A DNA stretch of 25,040 nucleotides from a virus. Positions 1-8,054 of the stretch are shown one piece after another. A model generated the notes under the pieces. The model did not search any database. It had not been told where the DNA came from and was given only the letters and a program-made list of their open reading frames with translations. The DNA is taken from positions 1-25,040 of the IMG/VR virus record IMGVR_UViG_3300035228_001969. One strand, 5' to 3'. The position numbers were made by a program, and so were the translations under genes. Numbering within the stretch: the first letter of the stretch is position 1; every line of letters begins with the position of its first letter.

Positions 1-160
1 TTGGTAGACAGTTCTCAAACTGGTCGTAAAGGGCAGCATCATTGATTCCATTCTTTACCATGCAGTCGGTTGAATATCCGAGAGGACACCCAACCATAAG
101 ATCCATCACATATTGGATCTCAGAGGGCGTTAGGGTTACTTCTATAGTCTGGTTAGTCAT
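1..160 (-). CDS. Hypothetical protein, N-terminal part (runs off left edge)
   Basis: The frame is open from an ATG at 160 to the window edge, giving 53 codons. It begins MTNQTIEVTLTPSEIQYVMD and contains two cysteines. I do not recognise a family. Support for it being real: it follows a strong terminator plus promoter element at 226-260, it is on the same strand as all neighbours, and a 17-codon leader ORF (157-210) ends in an ATGA overlap with its start. No good Shine-Dalgarno sequence sits directly before the ATG, so translation may depend on coupling to that leader. The C-terminal part lies outside the window. Confidence 0.6.
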   Translation of the reverse strand, partial: MTNQTIEVTLTPSEIQYVMDLMVGCPLGYSTDCMVKNGINDAALYDQFENCLP

Positions 161-210
161 AAGTGGTTCAAGACGCTTGTGGGCGATTGTGGAGGGGTCT
201 CAGCAGTCAT
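157..210 (-). CDS. Possible 17-codon leader ORF
   Basis: This is a tiny ORF reading MTAETPPQSPTSVLNHL, with ATG at 210 and stop TGA at 159-157. The stop overlaps the ATG of the next gene as ATGA. A purine-rich stretch (AGAGAA) lies about 7 nt upstream of its ATG, whereas the main gene lacks a clear ribosome-binding site. It would be the first ORF on a transcript starting near 219. It could be a coupling leader peptide or chance, and nothing else in the window supports it. Confidence 0.25.
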   Translation of the reverse strand: MTAETPPQSPTSVLNHL

Positions 211-225
211 GGTGAGTTCTCTACC

Positions 226-260
226 AGTATACATGAAAAAAGCACCCTGTCAAGGGTGCT
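226..260 (-). promoter_or_regulatory. Promoter with -35 in a terminator loop
   Basis: On the minus strand the hexamer TTGACA (253-248) is the complete 6-nt loop of a terminator hairpin. It is followed by a 16-nt spacer (247-232) and TATACT (231-226). The -35 is consensus and the -10 differs from TATAAT at one position, so this is a credible host sigma-70 promoter. A transcript would start near 219 and serve the gene starting at 160. The same layout recurs at 2663-2697. Confidence 0.6.
235..260 (-). terminator. Rho-independent terminator
   Basis: A 7-bp stem, AGCACCC / GGGTGCT (260-254 with 247-241), encloses the 6-nt loop TTGACA. A run of six T follows on the minus strand (241-236). It starts about 10 nt after the stop codon of the gene ending at 270 and would end that transcript. 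Confidence 0.85.
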
Positions 261-269
261 ATACTAGAT

Positions 270-1355
270 CTAGTTTTCAATCTTATGAACTAATGTCTTA
301 AAATCATCATCTCCCATAAATTGTGTGAACCACTTCTCATATCCACCGTTAGGACCTTGTTTCTGCTTGTGGTTGAGACCCTTCTCATATGTGATGTTCA
401 ACCAATACAAGAAGAACGGAACACCTTGAGAAAATCCATCCATCTTACCACGATCCTTGATCACAAGGTCATGGTTACGACCGTTTTCTCTAGCGATCCA
501 TGTGGCAGAGTTGACATTACCTTTACCAGCTATAGGAATACCGATAATCTCACCATCTTCATCCAAAGCAGTTTCCGCAAGGAGAGACAATAATTGACTG
601 ACGTTATTATTGAATGGTCCTTTCTGAATGTGGAAAAGAAACAATGCAGTCATGAATGTAGCATCAAACTGCTTATTGTATCCTGTTTGAGACAGGAGTT
701 CATCAACTGCTTTGATGTTGTCCATGTAAGTATGAACAGCGCAAAGAGTTTGACTACGACGATACTCATCCATAGTAATAGATTCATCATCAGTGTCGGT
801 CCAAAGACCACGCTTACCGAAAGTATCAGAATCATGATACTGACATGTGTAACTAAGAGCGGTGACAATAGCACCATCTTGAAACTTCTTAGTTAGAGGG
901 AAATAGCGAAGGGACTTAAAGATACCCTGACAAACCTCTGCTGTCTGTTCAGTAGCAGATGGGTTATCAAATGCCCAATAGATGTTACGAAGACCAATGA
1001 GAGTCTTTTCATCATACTTGATAGCAAGAACATGTTCAGGAATCTTGTCAGTTTTACCCTCTTGCCATGCACGAGCTCGAGTATTAGCATCTAGACGCCA
1101 TTGATGCCCTGCGGAGTACTTTGAATTATCTTCCCATACATCATCTTCTGTTAGTTCACCGACTGCTACAATAAGATGTGTTGGAAAGAGTTTACGCAAG
1201 TGATCAAGCACTCCTCGTTTCTTCAATCGGTTAATAGTATTACGCTGAGTAATCCACTCAGGTAAGTTTAAAAAATTCTTTGTTTCCATCAGACAGATGG
1301 AGACACCAGGCGCGATCTGATACCACACGCCAAGTGCGAGTAAGTTTGGTTTCAT
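270..1355 (-). CDS. ParB/Srx-like domain protein (tentative)
   Basis: A 361-residue soluble protein. Residues about 60-140 resemble the ParB/sulfiredoxin-like fold: a beta strand (LIVAVG), then WRLDANTRARAW at 86-97, comparable to the D-G-N-T/H-R-x-x-A motif of that fold, then YWAFDNPSA near 126-134. The rest, about 140-361, is unrecognised. I chose the ATG at 1355 (MKPNLLALG): it has AGAG about 8 nt upstream and lies just downstream of a perfect sigma-70 promoter. The frame is open to a TTG at 1385, and an internal ATG (METKNF) near 1289 is an alternative. It sits alone between its own promoter and the terminator at 235-260, suggesting an independently expressed, perhaps early, gene. A nuclease, a DNA-binding protein or a transcription modifier are all possible. 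The ParB-like call is inference from motif shape only. Confidence 0.75.
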   Translation of the reverse strand: MKPNLLALGVWYQIAPGVSICLMETKNFLNLPEWITQRNTINRLKKRGVLDHLRKLFPTHLIVAVGELTEDDVWEDNSKYSAGHQWRLDANTRARAWQEGKTDKIPEHVLAIKYDEKTLIGLRNIYWAFDNPSATEQTAEVCQGIFKSLRYFPLTKKFQDGAIVTALSYTCQYHDSDTFGKRGLWTDTDDESITMDEYRRSQTLCAVHTYMDNIKAVDELLSQTGYNKQFDATFMTALFLFHIQKGPFNNNVSQLLSLLAETALDEDGEIIGIPIAGKGNVNSATWIARENGRNHDLVIKDRGKMDGFSQGVPFFLYWLNITYEKGLNHKQKQGPNGGYEKWFTQFMGDDDFKTLVHKIEN

Positions 1356-1422
1356 AATAGGTCTCTTAATTGAGGTTAGCAACAATACCTTCAGACTGGT
1401 GTGTCTTTGGCATGTTGGTTAT

Positions 1423-1451
1423 ATTATATATCAGACTAGAAATTCTGTCAA
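1423..1451 (-). promoter_or_regulatory. Perfect consensus sigma-70 promoter
   Basis: On the minus strand TTGACA (1451-1446) is followed by exactly 17 nt (1445-1429) and TATAAT (1428-1423). Both hexamers and the spacing match the bacterial sigma-70 consensus. The -35 box lies inside the last codons of the methyltransferase gene, and its stop (1433-1431) lies in the spacer. Transcription would begin near 1416 and drive the gene at 270-1355. A promoter this strong fits immediate-early expression by unmodified host RNA polymerase. Confidence 0.8.
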
Positions 1452-2219
1452 CCCCTTTCGCAAACGAGTTTCCGCGAATGTCAGGTAATCCTGATCAATG
1501 TCGTATCCAATGTAGTCCCATCCTATATTCTGTGCGGCAACACCAGCAGTACCAGTGCCAAAGAAAGGATCAAGAACTATGCCAGACTCAACACCAGTCA
1601 TCTTGAGACAATCTTCCACCAGTTTGACAGGGAATGTTGCAGGATGCTTTCCGCGTAAAGATTTACTGTTGATAGTCTCATATGGTATAAACCAACAGTT
1701 ACCCTTATCTCTCAGGTTTGGTTTAGTATCAGCAGTATTCTTTCCGCGAATGTTTGCCTCATAGTATTCATACTTGACACCAACAGCAAGACGATCTACA
1801 CTCACGTTTCCATCTTTAGTGAAATGAAACAGATGTTCCCATGTAGGACACAAGAATCGTTTGCTATTGATAGGTTTGAAATGACCACTTGTCTTGTCAT
1901 TGACATGAACAGACTTGACCCAGTTGATATGATTTTGTAAAATCCAGTCATTTCTGAGTGCAAGACCGACTTCCATACCCACCCACGGATCGATGTTAGA
2001 ATATCCCATGTTAACAAATAGGTGCCCAGTATCCTTGAGCACACGCTTACCTTCAAGGAATACTTCTACCAACCACTCAATATATTCTTGACGTGGTTTG
2101 TTGTCATCATACTTACCATATTTGATGTTGAGGTTATATGGTGGAGATGTGACGATAGCATCTACACTACCGTCCTCCAGTTGTTTCATACCATCTAAAC
2201 AATCAAGAAAATAATGCAT
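1431..2219 (-). CDS. DNA methyltransferase, beta class (N4-cytosine or N6-adenine)
   Basis: A 262-residue protein with the ordered motifs of an amino-methyltransferase of the beta group: motif IV TSPPYN at 24-29 first, then KHPATFPVKL at 191-200, then the SAM-binding motif I DPFFGTGT at 217-224, followed by YIGYDID at 236-242. It transfers a methyl group from S-adenosylmethionine to an exocyclic amino group in DNA. TSPPY favours N4-cytosine but also occurs in N6-adenine enzymes. I chose the ATG at 2219 because GGAG lies 6 nt upstream; the open frame extends to a GTG at 2273 but without such a site. The start overlaps the upstream gene by 17 nt, implying translational coupling. No restriction endonuclease is nearby, so it looks like an orphan phage methylase that may mask phage DNA from host nucleases. 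Confidence 0.92.
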   Translation of the reverse strand: MHYFLDCLDGMKQLEDGSVDAIVTSPPYNLNIKYGKYDDNKPRQEYIEWLVEVFLEGKRVLKDTGHLFVNMGYSNIDPWVGMEVGLALRNDWILQNHINWVKSVHVNDKTSGHFKPINSKRFLCPTWEHLFHFTKDGNVSVDRLAVGVKYEYYEANIRGKNTADTKPNLRDKGNCWFIPYETINSKSLRGKHPATFPVKLVEDCLKMTGVESGIVLDPFFGTGTAGVAAQNIGWDYIGYDIDQDYLTFAETRLRKGLTEFLV

Positions 2220-2640
2220 TACGATCTCCGTATGGAATAGAACCTTTAGGGTATTGAGTAAGATCAGATCCACGTTTGAATATAACGCGAACCTTAGGGA
2301 ATTCTACCACATCACAGAAGATATAGATCATGTCAATAGCATGTTCCCAGAGTTTCTCTTCATCTACAGAGCGACCAGCACCAAGCATTACACTAGGACA
2401 GAACTTAGCACCACCTTTAGTGAAACACTTAGCATCAAATAACTCTTTCATATATTTGTAGCGATGGTCATAACCTTTACCATCTTCAAACACAAGACCC
2501 TCAAACCACTCTTCTAATTGTAGTTCAAGAAATCCTGATGCACGGCGACCATCTGTAAACAATTTATCTACACGTTCTTGAGATAGAGTGCCAAAAGATG
2601 CAGGACATTCAAAAGTGTAGGTTTTGTTCAGTTCAATCAT
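2203..2640 (-). CDS. Hypothetical protein
   Basis: A 145-residue protein starting MIELNKTYTFECPASFGTL. It has mixed charge and no signal peptide, membrane segment or recognised catalytic motif. Residues about 95-125 are hydrophobic and aromatic (DMIYIFCDVVEF) and look like a beta-strand core. It is the first gene behind the promoter at 2663-2668/2685-2690 and overlaps the start of the methyltransferase by 17 nt, so the two are probably co-transcribed. The leader before its ATG has no clear Shine-Dalgarno sequence. A role alongside DNA modification is possible from position alone. Confidence 0.8.
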   Translation of the reverse strand: MIELNKTYTFECPASFGTLSQERVDKLFTDGRRASGFLELQLEEWFEGLVFEDGKGYDHRYKYMKELFDAKCFTKGGAKFCPSVMLGAGRSVDEEKLWEHAIDMIYIFCDVVEFPKVRVIFKRGSDLTQYPKGSIPYGDRNALFS

Positions 2641-2662
2641 GGGTGTTTGTGTCTATGCTGTA

Positions 2663-2697
2663 ATTGTACACGAAAAACAGGTGGCGTCAACCACCTG
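2663..2697 (-). promoter_or_regulatory. Promoter with -35 in a terminator loop (second copy)
   Basis: On the minus strand TTGACG (2690-2685) is the 6-nt loop of a terminator hairpin. It is followed by a 16-nt spacer (2684-2669) and TACAAT (2668-2663). Each hexamer has one mismatch to consensus. The expected start near 2656 lies 16 nt before the ATG at 2640. Stem length, loop length and spacer length all equal those of the element at 226-260, although the stem sequences differ. Confidence 0.6.
2673..2697 (-). terminator. Rho-independent terminator
   Basis: A 7-bp GC-rich stem, CAGGTGG / CCACCTG (2697-2691 with 2684-2678), encloses TTGACG and is followed by five T (2677-2673). It begins 7 nt after the stop codon of the oxygenase gene ending at 2705 and would end the long fibre/oxygenase transcript. 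Confidence 0.85.
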
Positions 2698-2704
2698 CAA
2701 CCAG

Positions 2705-3259
2705 TTAGCGAAGTGGTGGACCAGGAGCCCACCCCACTAGACTTTTTCTGATACCCTTTGTTACAGGTTTGACCCTATGTGGCAGTGTTGAAGGAAACAC
2801 AATCAATGTTCCTGTTTTATTTTCAGCAATGACAGTCTCAGTCTTCAACTCATGATCACCAAAAGAATAACGACCAATTTCAAATTCCCCTCCCTCATAG
2901 TCATCATTCAACATTAATGTAAATGATAGTTTTCTAGGTGGATTGTGCCCAGTTGTATCGATATGCCAACAATAGTGATCTCCAACATTATAATGAGAGT
3001 ATTGAATTGATTTATTCTCAAAGAAAGGATGTAGATTAAACTTAAAATTGTCTTCGTTGATAACATTCACCCAGTGACAACAAAATTTGTATGCCATATC
3101 ACTCTCAGGAATAAAAGTAATTTTAGATGATCTTATGTCATGATCTAATCCTGATTTTATTTTGGATTGCTTCCAAGAAGAATCAATAGTATCCAATTCA
3201 TTGTAGATACGCTGTGGTATTTTAATTATGTGGATAATTGCTTCTTCGTTATGAATCAC
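2705..3259 (-). CDS. 2OG-Fe(II) oxygenase, PKHD-type hydroxylase-like
   Basis: About 184 residues from a GTG at 3259. The fold signature is the double-stranded beta-helix of 2-oxoglutarate/Fe(II) dioxygenases: HID at 99-101 supplies two iron ligands, H161 in LPHR the third, and R171 in KGIRKSLVGW the 2-oxoglutarate salt bridge. PRKLSFTLMLND and GGEFEI between them are typical core strands. Such enzymes couple decarboxylation of 2OG to hydroxylation, often of protein proline or other side chains. The frame stays open to ATG codons at 3331, but 3259-3331 codes better in the frame of the preceding small gene, so I prefer the GTG, which overlaps that gene by 11 nt. No Shine-Dalgarno is visible. 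This is the last gene before the terminator at 2673-2697. The substrate is unknown. Confidence 0.85.
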   Translation of the reverse strand: MIHNEEAIIHIIKIPQRIYNELDTIDSSWKQSKIKSGLDHDIRSSKITFIPESDMAYKFCCHWVNVINEDNFKFNLHPFFENKSIQYSHYNVGDHYCWHIDTTGHNPPRKLSFTLMLNDDYEGGEFEIGRYSFGDHELKTETVIAENKTGTLIVFPSTLPHRVKPVTKGIRKSLVGWAPGPPLR

Positions 3260-3407
3260 TGAAGATAGGGATAATGTTAGTCTTAGCGTGTTCTGTTTTG
3301 TTAATGTGCTGTTCCCACATGCTGGCATCATCTAGATTATAGAAGATTGCTTGCTGCTTTGCTTGCCCCTTCTTCTTGTTCTTCATCCACACAACTGCAT
3401 ACTTCAT
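3249..3407 (-). CDS. Small hypothetical protein in an overlapping frame
   Basis: A 52-residue ORF starting MKYAVVWMKNKKKGQAKQ. The N-terminus is lysine-rich, followed by protein-like sequence (AIFYNLDDASMWEQHI). GAG lies about 9 nt before the ATG at 3407; a second ATG is at 3386. It overlaps the 3' end of the gene at 3337-3570 by 71 nt in another frame and the next oxygenase by 11 nt. It is too short for many gene finders. The composition looks coding, and it fills what would otherwise be a gap between 3260 and 3336. It could instead be the original C-terminus of the upstream gene, separated by a frameshift. Confidence 0.55.
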   Translation of the reverse strand: MKYAVVWMKNKKKGQAKQQAIFYNLDDASMWEQHINKTEHAKTNIIPIFSDS

Positions 3408-3570
3408 TCCAATACTCGCGATAAACACATAAAGTTGACTGATAACGACCATGACGACATGTTGGGTCAGGTCGATCGACATAACAAATGGTGATATACT
3501 GATCACCAATAAAATCTACCCACCCTTTAGTGGTGTGATACTGAACCATCATACCACGAGTAAACTTCAC
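3337..3570 (-). CDS. Small hypothetical protein
   Basis: A 77-residue protein with a GTG start at 3570 that overlaps the preceding stop as GTGA; GAGG lies about 8 nt upstream. An in-frame ATG follows six codons later. The sequence (MKFTRGMMVQYHTTKGWVDFIGDQYITIC...) looks like a small beta-rich SH3-like fold with a V-x-Y...G-W-V-D-F-I pattern, but that is inference. The last 23 residues (EVCSCVDEEQEEGASKAASN...) look less ordered and overlap the frame of the next small gene. No function recognised. Confidence 0.7.
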   Translation of the reverse strand: MKFTRGMMVQYHTTKGWVDFIGDQYITICYVDRPDPTCRHGRYQSTLCVYREYWNEVCSCVDEEQEEGASKAASNLL

Positions 3571-3767
3571 TCGTCAACCTCTTCAAATGGCTTACGATTT
3601 TTGTTTTCTGGTTTAGGAAGACGGAACATCTCCTTAAGATCATTCAAATCATTTAGTTGCTGTTGAATAGAATCAAGTCTCCTCTGTATCACATTAAAGT
3701 TATGATCGCTGTTGCTCTGGATTGTCAACATGTTTTCAACTGTTTGTTTAAAGTCTTCTTCAGTCAT
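3567..3767 (-). CDS. Small coiled-coil protein
   Basis: A 66-residue protein, highly charged. Residues about 5-48 are predicted helical with heptad-like spacing of I/L/M (VENMLTIQ..., NVIQRRLDSIQQQLNDLNDL), pointing to a short coiled coil. The C-terminal tail is basic then acidic (PKPENKNRKPFEEVDE). The ATG at 3767 overlaps the previous stop as TAATG and its own stop overlaps the next GTG, so it belongs to a tightly coupled operon. Function unknown; it may be a small oligomeric adaptor. Confidence 0.75.
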   Translation of the reverse strand: MTEEDFKQTVENMLTIQSNSDHNFNVIQRRLDSIQQQLNDLNDLKEMFRLPKPENKNRKPFEEVDE

Positions 3768-4015
3768 TAGTAGCGTTCAGGAATACGGTGTTCTAGGTTG
3801 AGAGCAGTGTTGCCAGTCATGTAGTCTCTAAGAGACATAGCACGACAATATGCTTTCTTGTGGTATTCTATCACATCATCGACGCCAGATAGCATCTCTT
3901 CATGCGCTTGTCGTGCTGATACTTTATCATCGTTGAGATAATCATCGATCGCATTTTGCATACGATCTTTGCGCTGTTTTGAATACTCATGGTTCCAGTT
4001 GATTTCAGTTTTCAT
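3767..4015 (-). CDS. Small hypothetical helical protein
   Basis: An 82-residue protein from the ATG at 4015 (MKTEINWNHEYSKQRKDRMQ...), rich in charged residues and mostly helical by eye. The frame is open to 4060, with a second ATG at 4027, but the extra N-terminal residues overlap the previous coding frame. I therefore prefer 4015, which gives an 11-nt overlap with that gene. It ends in a TAATG overlap with the next gene. No domain recognised. Confidence 0.72.
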   Translation of the reverse strand: MKTEINWNHEYSKQRKDRMQNAIDDYLNDDKVSARQAHEEMLSGVDDVIEYHKKAYCRAMSLRDYMTGNTALNLEHRIPERY

Positions 4016-4229
4016 TAAAGTCTTCATTGCGACGTTTGTCAAGGTATTCGATGATCTCACTACGCCATTCTAGCAGTTCATGATAGCATTGCTGATCATG
4101 TGCGTCCTGACGTAGCTGATAGTCTGGTTTAAGAACGCTCTCATAGAAGATATAGAACGCATCTTTACGTTTCTCGTGTTTTGTGGTACTATTCCAATCC
4201 ATGGGGTTCGACGGACGCTCTGCTACCAT
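4005..4229 (-). CDS. Small hypothetical protein
   Basis: A 74-residue protein, MVAERPSNPMDWNSTTKHEK..., charged and helix-rich, with no recognised motif. Neither the ATG at 4229 nor the one at 4202 (MDWNSTT, 65 residues) has a good ribosome-binding site. If the promoter-like sequence at 4225-4254 is active, the first ATG would lie in its -10 box and 4202 would be the real start. It is the first gene of the run of small genes 3249-4229 and overlaps the next by 11 nt. Confidence 0.65.
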   Translation of the reverse strand: MVAERPSNPMDWNSTTKHEKRKDAFYIFYESVLKPDYQLRQDAHDQQCYHELLEWRSEIIEYLDKRRNEDFNEN

Positions 4230-4254
4230 AGCACAGGTGTCAACCTGCTGTCAA
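4225..4254 (-). promoter_or_regulatory. Weak promoter-like sequence with hairpin loop TTGACA
   Basis: On the minus strand TTGACA (4254-4249) is followed by 18 nt and TATGGT (4230-4225). Inside the spacer a second TTGACA (4243-4238) is the loop of a short CAGG / CCTG hairpin. The hairpin resembles the elements at 226-260 and 2663-2697, but with only a 4-bp stem and no T-run. The -10 is poor and overlaps a candidate start codon. This is a candidate internal promoter for the small genes. Confidence 0.3.
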
Positions 4255-5094
4255 GTCCTCGAACTGTTCCACTTTGTGAACATACACAAAGGTTTCTTTA
4301 TGGGATCCATCTGGGTTTATAATAAACTCAATGTCAAACCATGAGTTATGTGTACAAATAGAAGTAATATAATCTGCTTCTTCATCTGTTAAAATATCAA
4401 GTTTATCTTTCTTTAATACATTGAGATACATTTGTGCTTTTTCATTTCTTCTTTCAACTGCAAAAACAAACTTATCTTGCTTATCAAATGTTTTGGTAAC
4501 ATTAAAAAATAATTTGTATGATAACTCATCTGTATCTAATTTAAACTTCAATACTCCATAACCATATTTTGTCACATACTTAGGAAATGCATTAATTTTC
4601 TTAAGGAAGTTTTGATCTGCATAACTATCAAAACTATAGTCATCGTCATATACAGTGCAACCATTGTATGCACCATCTGGTTTGTATAACATACCAAGTA
4701 AGAAAGTCTTATTACTTAAGGTAACGTTAGTATGTCTCTCAAATTTGGATCTTAGATCCATAAAACCTTCACAATCGATTGCTCGCGAGAATTTATTCCA
4801 CACTGGAAATAAAACAGGATATCTAATACCATGCTTCGCAAGAATTTCAATGATATCTCCATCATTATGCTCAATAAACAAATGTTTATTAAATTCATAT
4901 TCAGGATCTGTCACATGACCAAAGACATAATTAAAATACTTATTTAATTTAAGTTTAAGATCAGTATCCAAATCAGGAAGATATGCAGGATCCATCAGAG
5001 ACGTAAATCTCCTAGGCATTGTTTCTATAGTAGAAACTTTCTCTCTTGTAGTAAGACTGTATTTGTCAACAACAGTATATCTTTCGGAAAACAT
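4240..5094 (-). CDS. Hypothetical protein
   Basis: A 284-residue soluble protein starting MFSERYTVVDKYSLTTREKV. It is rich in aromatic and charged residues (repeated Y/F/D/K, for example TVYDDDYSFDSYADQNFL at about 148-165), with no signal peptide, membrane segment or catalytic motif that I recognise. The ATG at 5094 overlaps the preceding stop as TAATG. It sits in a coupled chain with two oxygenases upstream and small genes downstream. Its role could be substrate binding or partner function for those enzymes, but that is position-based speculation. Confidence 0.82.
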   Translation of the reverse strand: MFSERYTVVDKYSLTTREKVSTIETMPRRFTSLMDPAYLPDLDTDLKLKLNKYFNYVFGHVTDPEYEFNKHLFIEHNDGDIIEILAKHGIRYPVLFPVWNKFSRAIDCEGFMDLRSKFERHTNVTLSNKTFLLGMLYKPDGAYNGCTVYDDDYSFDSYADQNFLKKINAFPKYVTKYGYGVLKFKLDTDELSYKLFFNVTKTFDKQDKFVFAVERRNEKAQMYLNVLKKDKLDILTDEEADYITSICTHNSWFDIEFIINPDGSHKETFVYVHKVEQFEDLTAG

Positions 5095-5441
5095 TATTCG
5101 TTAGTTAAAATAGTTTGACCTTCAACATTACACAGAGAATAGAAGATATAATTTTCTGGCGTTGTTGTTTCTGCTTGACTTGCTGGAAAACTTGCTTCTA
5201 AGAATTCGACAGTCATTTGCATATCATCAACTTCCATAAAAACATATTCCGATTGCTTCAGTGCTGTCCACATATCCAGAGGCAGAATCGATTTATAAGT
5301 TTCATATGAAGCATTGATAGCATCAACATCAGTGCTATTATTCCACCCATAGGATCTCAGCATAACAACTGGTTTTCCTTTCATAAGAGCATAGTTCTCG
5401 ATGAAGTTATCAAAATAATATACGTCGTAAGATGTGTTCAT
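5094..5441 (-). CDS. Hypothetical protein
   Basis: A 115-residue protein starting MNTSYDVYYFDNFIENYALM. The ATG at 5441 overlaps the previous stop as ATGA, which decides the start over an in-frame TTG at 5459. It looks like a small alpha/beta protein (KPVVMLRSYGWN..., SEYVFMEVDDMQ...) with no recognised family. It is translationally coupled to an oxygenase gene upstream and to the 284-residue gene downstream. Confidence 0.8.
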   Translation of the reverse strand: MNTSYDVYYFDNFIENYALMKGKPVVMLRSYGWNNSTDVDAINASYETYKSILPLDMWTALKQSEYVFMEVDDMQMTVEFLEASFPASQAETTTPENYIFYSLCNVEGQTILTNE

Positions 5442-5947
5442 TTTAGTACGAGTTTCCAAGCAATTGTTTTACGCAGACCTAGAAATAATCTAGATGTTCC
5501 TTCTGCTCTATGAGGAATATTTCCTGAGAATAGGATTGCTGAGTTAGGAACAAACTCAGAGTAATGGTATGTATCACCTGTTTTAAATACTGTCTTACCT
5601 TCCCACTCTTGATCCCAACTATCGTTAGCATAAAGAAGAAATGTTCTGCCTTGATCATTGTGCCAATCCTGGTGAAAATTACCAGAAGTGCCAAATGTAT
5701 GACCATTACAGTAAACAGCAGTTAATTCATACTTTTGATTAGTCTTTTCCTCAATGATATTTAGAAGATATTCAGTGAAGAAGAAGTCATCACCTAGATG
5801 CATCATCCAGAATGGTATCTTTCTCTCTGGATGTCCTGATGGATATGATCCATGACCATACTCCCACTTAGGTTGATTCAACTTCTCAAGTATCAACATG
5901 AAATCTTTTCGTGAGAGAAAATTATCATATCTTACAATATCATTCAT
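5438..5947 (-). CDS. 2OG-Fe(II) oxygenase
   Basis: A 169-residue dioxygenase of the double-stranded beta-helix fold. The iron ligands are H92 and D94 in FHQDWHND and H146 in NIPHR. R159 in LFLGLRKTIAWKL is the likely 2-oxoglutarate contact. The FHQDWHND form with a second histidine, and the ILFSGNIPHRAEG segment, place it in a different subgroup from the enzymes at 2705 and 5944. The ATG at 5947 overlaps the upstream stop as ATGA. It would hydroxylate an unknown substrate in the infected-cell cytoplasm, using O2 and 2OG. It lies directly next to another oxygenase gene. Confidence 0.88.
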   Translation of the reverse strand: MNDIVRYDNFLSRKDFMLILEKLNQPKWEYGHGSYPSGHPERKIPFWMMHLGDDFFFTEYLLNIIEEKTNQKYELTAVYCNGHTFGTSGNFHQDWHNDQGRTFLLYANDSWDQEWEGKTVFKTGDTYHYSEFVPNSAILFSGNIPHRAEGTSRLFLGLRKTIAWKLVLK

Positions 5948-6423
5948 TTTTGCAACCAGCATAAAAACACATCTCTACGTCCCGAAATAACTCTATTCAC
6001 TCTATGGATATAATTACCAGGATATATTACTGCTTTACCTTTCTGTAATTTGACAGGTGTAGAACCATCAATAATCAATTCACCTCCTTTATACCCATCA
6101 TTAAGAAAACATGTCATACTATAATCCGATTTAACACCACCACACATAGCAGCATCATAGTGGTCTCCATACATCCCACCAATACTATACTTAGTAAAAT
6201 ATATCTGAGATATTGCTGATATTTTAACAGGGAGATCTACTTGTGATATTATATCACGACAATAATTATTCAAATCAACATGTCCTGGTCCATCAAATAC
6301 AGTTTGACATCGTTTATCTTCTCTAGGATTGCTAATTCTTCCGTCTTTAAATGTTAAGTGATTAAAATATAGATTAATGTATTCAAGTTGTTCATCATTT
6401 AATAAATCAGTTTCGTATATCAT
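5944..6423 (-). CDS. 2OG-Fe(II) oxygenase, PKHD-type hydroxylase-like
   Basis: A 159-residue prolyl-4-hydroxylase-like enzyme. HYD at 88-90 gives two iron ligands, H140 in YIHRV the third, and R150 in SGRRDVFLCW the 2-oxoglutarate contact. The core strands YSMTCFLNDGYKGGEL and KGKAVIYPGNYIHRV are typical of the PKHD/YbiX-like group. At under 160 residues it is a minimal catalytic domain without accessory domains. Both ends overlap neighbours as ATGA: upstream the probable fibre chaperone, downstream another oxygenase. This suggests equal co-expression with fibre assembly. The substrate is unknown. Confidence 0.9.
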   Translation of the reverse strand: MIYETDLLNDEQLEYINLYFNHLTFKDGRISNPREDKRCQTVFDGPGHVDLNNYCRDIISQVDLPVKISAISQIYFTKYSIGGMYGDHYDAAMCGGVKSDYSMTCFLNDGYKGGELIIDGSTPVKLQKGKAVIYPGNYIHRVNRVISGRRDVFLCWLQK

Positions 6424-7370
6424 TCTTCCAATTCAGAATCATTAACATAATATCGATCCCAATCCTCAGGAATCCTATCTGGAACACCAAGAAGTTCCAT
6501 CATTTTTTTCATATTATCGTTAATTTTTCTATTTACTAATTTGTGTTTACCTGCAAGTAAATACATTTGATCTTCTCTGCTCTTCATAAAATCAGATGAT
6601 GCTTCAGAATCATGCTTGACCCATTGGTTAGCATCATTTACATCCAGAAATGCAGGTGCATCAGTTACACCATCTTCCAACTTACCATTTGGATATATTT
6701 TTAAGTAATAATTTGGATCTCTAGGCCACTTTAATTCATAGGTATATTTAAAGTATGCTAAACCAGATCCACCAAATCTTTCATCCTTTGGGTTTACCAT
6801 ACTTTCTTTGCGAACCCATCTTCTCCAAGCAATCCACCTATCTCTTTCGCCTTCATATTCTTCTTCGATATCAGGAAGAACTCTCCAATCAGACAAGTTT
6901 AACATTTCAGTTTTTTGTCTTTTAATTTTAAACCATCTCTGCTCATAGAAAATAATTTCTTTATCAACATCTCCAATAACTTTTTCGACTTCAAGATTTC
7001 GGATTTCAACACCAATCTCAAAAAACGTTATACATAGATCACAAAATTCTTTTGCCTGTGCTGAAGTAGCACCAGTGAAAGAATATGTTTTGTAATATGA
7101 AGTTTCTGTTTTAAAGTCGTATTGACGTTTCTGTCTTTGACAGAAATAAGTTCCATCATCAAAATACTGAAAGAAATCAATTCTGTCGTTGTCATTGTGC
7201 CAGAAATCATCAACAGATTCTGTTAAAAATTTCTCTAATAAATCAGCATCTAACGCTGTTTTTTTATTACCACGACTACGGTAATCAGTAGCAGTAACTT
7301 CAATTTCTGTATTAGGAGTTACAAATTTGTTGATAAAATCAACTTCTATAGCAATCTTTCTTAATTCCAT
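6420..7370 (-). CDS. Probable tail-fibre assembly chaperone
   Basis: A 316-residue protein. Residues 151-188 (R-Q-K...NLSDWRVLPDI...W-I-A-W-R-R-W-V-R-K) match the pattern of phage tail-fibre assembly proteins, R-x(3)-L-x(2)-S-D-W-x(2)-L-P-D...W-x(2)-Y/W-R-x(2)-L/V-R, as in the Phage_tail_APC/gp38-type families. The N-terminal part (about 1-150) is beta-rich and specific to this protein. The C-terminal part (about 205-316) contains WPRDPNYYLKIYPNGKL and a charged helical tail. Fibre chaperones usually lie beside the fibre genes they serve, as here. The gene sits between two oxygenases and overlaps the next by ATGA. The family call rests on a short motif. Confidence 0.65.
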   Translation of the reverse strand: MELRKIAIEVDFINKFVTPNTEIEVTATDYRSRGNKKTALDADLLEKFLTESVDDFWHNDNDRIDFFQYFDDGTYFCQRQKRQYDFKTETSYYKTYSFTGATSAQAKEFCDLCITFFEIGVEIRNLEVEKVIGDVDKEIIFYEQRWFKIKRQKTEMLNLSDWRVLPDIEEEYEGERDRWIAWRRWVRKESMVNPKDERFGGSGLAYFKYTYELKWPRDPNYYLKIYPNGKLEDGVTDAPAFLDVNDANQWVKHDSEASSDFMKSREDQMYLLAGKHKLVNRKINDNMKKMMELLGVPDRIPEDWDRYYVNDSELEE

Positions 7371-7376
7371 GGGTTG

Positions 7377-8054
7377 TTAAGTGCTCTTGATGTACCATCC
7401 TGTTATGATATATTTATCTTCAGTCAATACAGTATTTCCTTTATGCGAATGTGTATATCCAGATGGCCAAATAACAACAGTTCCTGCAGTAGGTTTAATT
7501 CTTCTTCTTTGATACAAAAATTCAGTTTCTGCTTCACCATCAGGCATGTCATTAAGATAAATCATCCAAACTACTTCTCTAGGAGCATGTGCTAGATCAG
7601 CATTTTCATGATGCCACAAATGATATCCACCTCCAGGAGGTGTTTTTTGAAACTTAATGTCAGTAGATACTAATCCAGTATGTTTTAATGATTGATACTT
7701 ATGAATGTAATGCCTCACACAACTCTTTAGTACAGAGTTTGTTTTAGTAGATAAGTCTCTATTAGAAAAATTTAACAAAAATGAATAATCTTTTCTATTC
7801 AAATCTCCACCATATTGCTGAGAAGAATTGAATGGTATCTCTGCATTTGGACTGTACTCTGTTGTTGCTGATGGGACCTCAATACAAGCAGTATCATAAA
7901 CTGAATTTGCATATTTGATCAACTCTTCACACAATGGTCTTGGCATAAAATTTGGCCAGACACCAATAAAATCATCAAAGTCAGATTTGGTAATTCTATT
8001 GTCGAGCATTAATTCAAGAGGTCTATAATCTGGAACACTCGATTTTTGATTCAT
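7377..8054 (-). CDS. 2OG-Fe(II) oxygenase with HxE metal site
   Basis: A 225-residue dioxygenase. The metal-binding segment GGGYHLWHHEN (141-151) gives H148 and E150 in place of the usual HxD. The third ligand is H202 in GYTHSHKGN, and K214 in EDKYIITGW takes the place of the usual arginine for 2-oxoglutarate. VVWMIYLNDM and TAGTVVIWPSG are the flanking core strands. Residues 1-120 form an extra N-terminal region not seen in the smaller enzymes nearby. HxE and Lys are tolerated in some 2OG enzyme subgroups, so activity is plausible. The ATG at 8054 follows the stop of the collar-fibre gene by 2 nt. It is the first oxygenase after the fibre genes. Confidence 0.88.
   Translation of the reverse strand: MNQKSSVPDYRPLELMLDNRITKSDFDDFIGVWPNFMPRPLCEELIKYANSVYDTACIEVPSATTEYSPNAEIPFNSSQQYGGDLNRKDYSFLLNFSNRDLSTKTNSVLKSCVRHYIHKYQSLKHTGLVSTDIKFQKTPPGGGYHLWHHENADLAHAPREVVWMIYLNDMPDGEAETEFLYQRRRIKPTAGTVVIWPSGYTHSHKGNTVLTEDKYIITGWYIKST
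7411..7418 (-). promoter_or_regulatory. Possible T4-type late promoter
   Basis: GATAAATA on the minus strand is one mismatch from the T4 late consensus TATAAATA and lies about 40 nt before the ATG at 7370. It is inside the 3' end of the oxygenase gene, where it encodes D-K-Y, so it may simply be coding sequence. Confidence 0.25.

Follow-up and report, generated by a model that had tools for sequence, protein, structure and literature searches.

A putative fused terminator and sigma-70 promoter ahead of a restriction-modification block in a T4-like cyanomyovirus

The analysis of a T4-like cyanomyovirus sequence outlined, between a 2OG oxygenase gene and an RsaI-like endonuclease gene, a compact composite element that very probably fuses an intrinsic terminator with a sigma-70 promoter reading in the same direction. 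The sequence analysed, hereafter the window, is a 25,040-base IMG/VR virus record near Synechococcus phage ACG-2014e, with which its bases 1-8000 share 94.3% identity over 69% of bases. Composites of this type, with TTGAC in the hairpin loop, are a recurring class across cyanomyoviruses and not a single case.

All the genes of the region lie on the minus strand (Table 1), and the oxygenase transcript is the one that the element would terminate. The RsaI-like endonuclease presents 44% identity to a Syn19 protein and 34% to an ACG-2014j protein, both annotated as R.RsaI endonuclease, and the DNA methyltransferase is 80% identical to Syn19 Dam. The order of restriction, modification and unknown gene seen in the window block is also found in Syn19, and searches with the third gene of the block returned no match in Pfam or NCBIfam. 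An earlier note on this DNA had described the element as separating the oxygenase from a methyltransferase block, which is accurate on the oxygenase side, but the endonuclease gene precedes that of the methyltransferase. Upstream of the third gene, a promoter without a hairpin is an internal contrast to the two composites of the window. The second of these composites is followed by a small gene on the minus strand, and in ACG-2014e and its relatives the codons of the leader ORF located there appear to make the C-terminal tail of a different methyltransferase. The late-promoter octamer TATAAATA is absent from the window.

Table 1. Positions in the window of the two composite elements, their parts, and the neighbouring genes and signals.
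Feature	Position	Strand	Remarks
Composite terminator/promoter	2663..2698	-	gap between 2OG oxygenase and RsaI-like endonuclease genes; about 36 letters
5' arm GCAGGTGG	2698-2691	-	part of composite 2663..2698
TTGACG, loop and putative -35	2690-2685	-	part of composite 2663..2698
3' arm CCACCTG(T)	2684-2677	-	part of composite 2663..2698
T-run	2677-2673	-	part of composite 2663..2698
Putative -10, TACAAT	2668-2663	-	spacer of 16 nt from TTGACG
Second composite	226..260	-	gap after gene 270..1385
5' arm AGCACCC	260-254	-	part of second composite
TTGACA	253-248	-	part of second composite
3' arm GGGTGCT	247-241	-	part of second composite
T-run	240-236	-	part of second composite
Putative -10, TATACT	231-226	-	part of second composite
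2OG-Fe(II) oxygenase gene	2705..3331	-	PF13640, E=1.2e-15; stop at 2705
RsaI-like restriction endonuclease gene	2203..2640	-	ATG at 2640; first gene downstream of composite 2663..2698
DNA methyltransferase gene	1431..2219	-	same block as the endonuclease; PF01555, E=1.2e-47
Third gene of restriction-modification block	270..1385	-	
Plain consensus sigma-70 promoter TTGACA-17-TATAAT	1423..1451	-	12/12 matches; without hairpin; upstream of third gene
17-codon leader ORF	157..210	-	just after second composite; ends over start codon of next gene (160-2)

The element reads on the minus strand, from 2698 to 2663, as GCAGGTGG TTGACG CCACCTGT TTTTCGTG TACAAT, and its hairpin begins 7 nt past the oxygenase stop codon. 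The 7-bp stem, the TTGACG hexamer, the T-run and the 16-nt spacer that had been noted at 2663-2697 were all confirmed, and could be assigned to the minus strand. The scanner called both a promoter and a terminator at this position, the promoter (TTGACG-16-TACAAT) matching at 10 of 12 positions as judged by sequence only. No T-run follows the hairpin on the plus strand, so the element is restricted to the minus strand. The predicted RNA folds with a dG of -14.6 kcal/mol (z -3.3), a stability reached by 1 of 200 shuffles. Its loop comprises four bases (UGAC) and not the six previously described, since the two end bases of the hexamer pair to close it, here as U-G. No curated RNA family in Rfam matches the window or the six loci examined.

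The RsaI target GTAC occurs at 2666-2669, overlapping the putative -10 box of the endonuclease's own promoter, an arrangement that could permit control by methylation. GTAC also lies over the -10 in ACG-2014j, L298 and L301, and does not in L087, L094 and L099. This tetranucleotide is scarce in the window (42 vs 79), and its under-representation extends to the other cyanophage genomes examined, whether or not they have an RsaI-like gene.

The second composite is predicted to fold with a dG of -13.0 kcal/mol, again reached by 1 of 200 shuffles, with a U-A pair closing the loop. The loop identity claimed for the two elements is not complete, TTGACA and TTGACG agreeing at five of six positions. 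TTGAC and the T-run are the only sequence shared by the two composites; we rejected the view of them as mutually recombining repeats on these grounds, and they need not be copies of one another. The 25-mer core of the second composite, AGCACCCTTGACAGGGTGCTTTTTT, was found exactly in 48 IMG/VR contigs. Among its 49 IMG/VR copies, the best -10, picked with a mild preference for spacer 17, lies at spacer 17 in 46 and at 16 in 3; 35 of these -10 hexamers match at five or more of six positions, and 33 are TG-extended.

Strict composites occur twice in the window and once in total in 400 dinucleotide shuffles of it (0.0025 per window), and a chance origin was rejected on this basis. Nine cyanomyovirus genomes (complete or large, 1.78 Mb) contained 14 strict composites against about 0.1 expected, and the genomes of RB49, phi1, T4 and KVP40 contained none. 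ACG-2014e has elements at 135073 and 180986. TTGAC is one of the four 5-mers most often seen in the loops of cyanophage terminators (11/162) and appears in no loop among 160 terminators of those four phages. Furthermore, a good -10 at promoter spacing accompanies 11 of 13 TTGAC-loop terminators vs 38 of 149 others (Fisher p=3.8e-5). The collected sequences amount to 48 non-redundant elements with 16 distinct stems, whose spacer is 17 nt in 41, 16 nt in 6 and 18 nt in 1. A spacer of exactly 16 nt is a local state and not a rule, and the identical geometry seen in the two window elements does not extend to the class.

A broader census took in 64 non-redundant cyanophage hairpins that have a -10 close by; in 30 of them both a -35-like hexamer and a TG extension are lacking, and many hairpin/-10 pairs may for this reason be the product of chance in AT-rich DNA. 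A -35 was present in 13 of 23 TG-extended composites and in 11 of 41 non-extended ones; the idea that a TG-extended -10 always compensates for a non-TTGAC loop, suggested by L090, L098 and L088, was not borne out. A conserved CTGG upstream of the hairpin was likewise discarded, being present in only 12 of the 48 elements.

The gap upstream of the RsaI-like gene presents several arrangements in related phages. ACG-2014j and several contigs carry the same stem with a wobble or outer-pair change and a spacer of 17, and in L087, L094/95 and L099 unrelated stems surround TTGACG, TTGACT and TTGACA, with T-run and -10 present. L090/91, L098/100/102 and L088/89/97 show a hairpin and T-run with other loops, followed in several cases by TGCTATRAT, and L092/93, L103 and L105-107 are without a hairpin. 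ACG-2014e presents TTGACA-17-TATATT at the same gap, with a broken stem and no T-run, and this promoter-like sequence precedes a different restriction-modification set. The constant loop expected of homologous gaps is hence kept by some relatives, but others have non-TTGAC hairpins or none, which in part amounts to the outcome named in the earlier note as contradicting its reading, and only three unrelated TTGAC stems were found at this gap itself.

The analysis traced TTGAC-loop elements at two further genomic positions in IMG/VR: the hsp20|gp139 gap, where gp139 is the gene name as annotated in ACG-2014e, and the purC gap, which was abandoned as a covariation set, being mostly without the element. 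TTGAC and the T-run are present in 74 of 76 complete orthologous hsp20|gp139 gaps of related cyanophages, and 39 distinct sequences align without gaps. Their seven stem pairs are paired in 90.8% of cells vs 78.0 after shuffling (sd 1.3), and cells with a double change number 37 vs 9.9. The covariation score reaches 0.407, compared with 0.170 in shuffles (sd 0.019) and at most 0.154 in slid controls. The pair three bases from the hexamer, for instance, is C-G in 18 sequences, G-C in 13 and U-A in 3. Because the set was picked for TTGAC and T-run, the constancy of these bases is to some extent built in. The choice made no use of the hexamer's sixth base, which is G in 35 of 39 sequences, nor of the TG-extended -10, which is also kept.

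The compensatory stem changes around a constant loop and -10 that the earlier note had anticipated were thus borne out in these 39 distinct orthologues. Its interpretation of conserved geometry as a mark of dual selection survives in the form of stem covariation with TTGAC kept; the geometry itself is not constant. The two hsp20|gp139 exceptions (L431 and L442) present TTGACA-17-TACACT with the hairpin gone and different upstream sequence, a putative promoter kept where the terminator is lost, and in some purC gaps the start codon comes directly after the terminator, and a promoter is absent. These results, obtained for same-type elements outside the 2663..2698 gap, support selection on both the terminator and the promoter functions. 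They also suggest that the hairpin is selected as an RNA structure, a view that for the 2663..2698 gap, with its few stems, draws on the same-type element elsewhere.

We propose that host RNA polymerase, either as the early holoenzyme or arriving by transcription of the oxygenase and tail genes, would transcribe the palindrome, and that the RNA would form an 8-9 bp hairpin followed by U5, ending the transcript. In double-stranded DNA, the loop hexamer TTGACG would act as the -35 box, with the 3' arm and T-run making up most of the 16-nt spacer and TACAAT serving as the -10. Host sigma-70 holoenzyme would then start a new transcript about 7 nt past the -10, with a short leader up to the endonuclease ATG. 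Within about 36 bp, the element would in this manner insulate the restriction-modification block and supply it with an early promoter of its own. We infer both activities in infected cells, and the start site. Cyanobacteria lack Rho (PMC13289151), and the strength of the terminator in the host is uncertain because canonical intrinsic terminators close no more than 22% of the transcription units of one freshwater cyanobacterium (PMC13289151).

It could be argued that the element is a plain terminator, its promoter likeness being a by-product of the AT-rich sequence after the T-run. The purC gaps lacking a promoter fit this view, as does AGCACCCTTGACAGGGTGCTTTTTT in a Bacteroidales contig, where it follows a tyrosyl-tRNA synthetase gene with no -10 and is evidently convergent. 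TTGAC loops are enriched, however, and go together with a -10 spaced 16-18 nt away, and the promoter persists in L431 and L442 where the hairpin is lost, which makes a plain terminator very improbable. The palindrome is also centred on the -35 box, the usual place of an operator, and restriction-modification genes are often controlled by operators of such a kind. The dyad could in that case bind a dimeric regulator of the endonuclease promoter, with the hairpin being incidental. Such an operator needs conserved arm bases, but the arms of different elements have unrelated sequences, and at hsp20|gp139 they covary in the manner of paired RNA bases. Moreover, the T-run invariably comes after the same arm, and the elements adjoin stop codons and precede unrelated genes. 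We regard an operator acting at the DNA level as extremely improbable.

The reading as a fused terminator and promoter is compatible with a mobile recombination cassette like that of the PeSL work considered below, in which short shared elements let phages swap gene blocks, a possibility that we entertain tentatively. AGCACCCTTGACAGGGTGCTTTTTT joins 16 upstream to 17 downstream gene families, with one upstream family meeting 7 downstream ones, and in two contigs a single 395-aa gene is flanked by a pair of copies separated by 1,282 bp. In addition, ACG-2014e matches the window (about 92%; 91.6%) up to 2686, inside the hairpin, beyond which it carries another restriction-modification set and rejoins the window at 208, the exchanged module thus having its edges at both elements. 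Against this, in a small control the homology break falls at the element in 10 of 21 pairs and further upstream in 7 of 21, and gives no convincing enrichment of synteny breaks at elements. The two window elements share too little sequence for mutual recombination, and identical hairpins can arise independently, as the Bacteroidales terminator without a -10 implies. Only one other cellular contig carries AGCACCCTTGACAGGGTGCTTTTTT, L303 (DKPS01000040.1), which is binned as a Saprospiraceae bacterium and is cyanophage DNA by its proteins.

Several further observations concern these neighbourhoods. The RsaI-like restriction-modification block lies between both composites (226-2698). The 395-aa protein stands alone between exact AGCACCCTTGACAGGGTGCTTTTTT copies (L256:3656-4843 and L280:1765-2952) and has no Pfam match. 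A stretch like GAGACCTTTCGTGCGGTCTCTACGAAAGTCGGAA, with a possible stem of its own and no Rfam match, precedes the hairpin in a family of at least 13 contigs, among them L267, L281, L094, L099 and L303.

The overlap might also reflect functional coupling, with the polymerase released at the hairpin staying on the DNA and re-initiating at the -35/-10 there, which would lie under or beside the footprint of the just-terminated enzyme. Recycling after termination has been shown for E. coli polymerase (PMC6978322, PMC11347151); its extension to the cyanophage element is speculation by analogy, and we deem coupling unlikely. Were it true, the phage would pass polymerase on between successive gene blocks, and the natural single-function variants constitute material on the coupling of termination and re-initiation. 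The data suggest that marine T4-type phages, whose hosts lack Rho, fit the end of one operon and the start of another within about 36 bp. As a signature, TTGAC in a terminator loop with a close -10 could help in annotating the early operons of cyanophage contigs.

For marine cyanomyoviruses, earlier reports list host-like (sigma-70) early promoters as well as predicted terminators (PMC3037559; S-PM2, PMC4503421), the same promoter class in the same hosts. The relevant passages of these reports predict both signals separately, listing promoters apart from terminators, and do not describe their overlap; PMC4503421 attributes stem-loops and a low PeSL density to S-PM2. With ordinary bacterial intrinsic terminators, the element shares a GC-rich stem, a small loop and a T-run, but where those usually have UUCG or GAAA in the loop, it has a -35 hexamer, followed further on by a -10.

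The closest likeness is to the PeSL (promoter-early stem-loop) composite motifs of T4-type phages, reportedly described by Arbiol (2010, Genome Biol Evol 2:140) and Comeau (2014, Genome Biol Evol 6:1611). Both combine a terminator stem-loop with a sigma-70-like early promoter in one direction, in intergenic positions of the variable regions of T4-type phages. At 2663..2698 the stem-loop followed by a T-run is present, as is, from its sequence alone, the same-direction early promoter. These composite promoter-terminator motifs are cited as published in PMC4503421. The element does not display the tandem spacing of RB49, which may be a defining trait of PeSLs. The RB49 examples present a hairpin, T-run, A-rich stretch and then TTGAC, that is, a separate promoter after the hairpin, and past the terminator stem -10-like hexamers peak at 35-45 nt in RB49, phi1, T4 and KVP40 vs 5-15 nt in cyanophages. 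In the element described here, unlike the RB49 PeSL, the hairpin loop itself provides the -35 box, with the -10 lying 8 nt past the stem. The cyanophage form can hence be described as an overlapped variant of the PeSL, predicted to work like a PeSL with a spacing that is not that of RB49.
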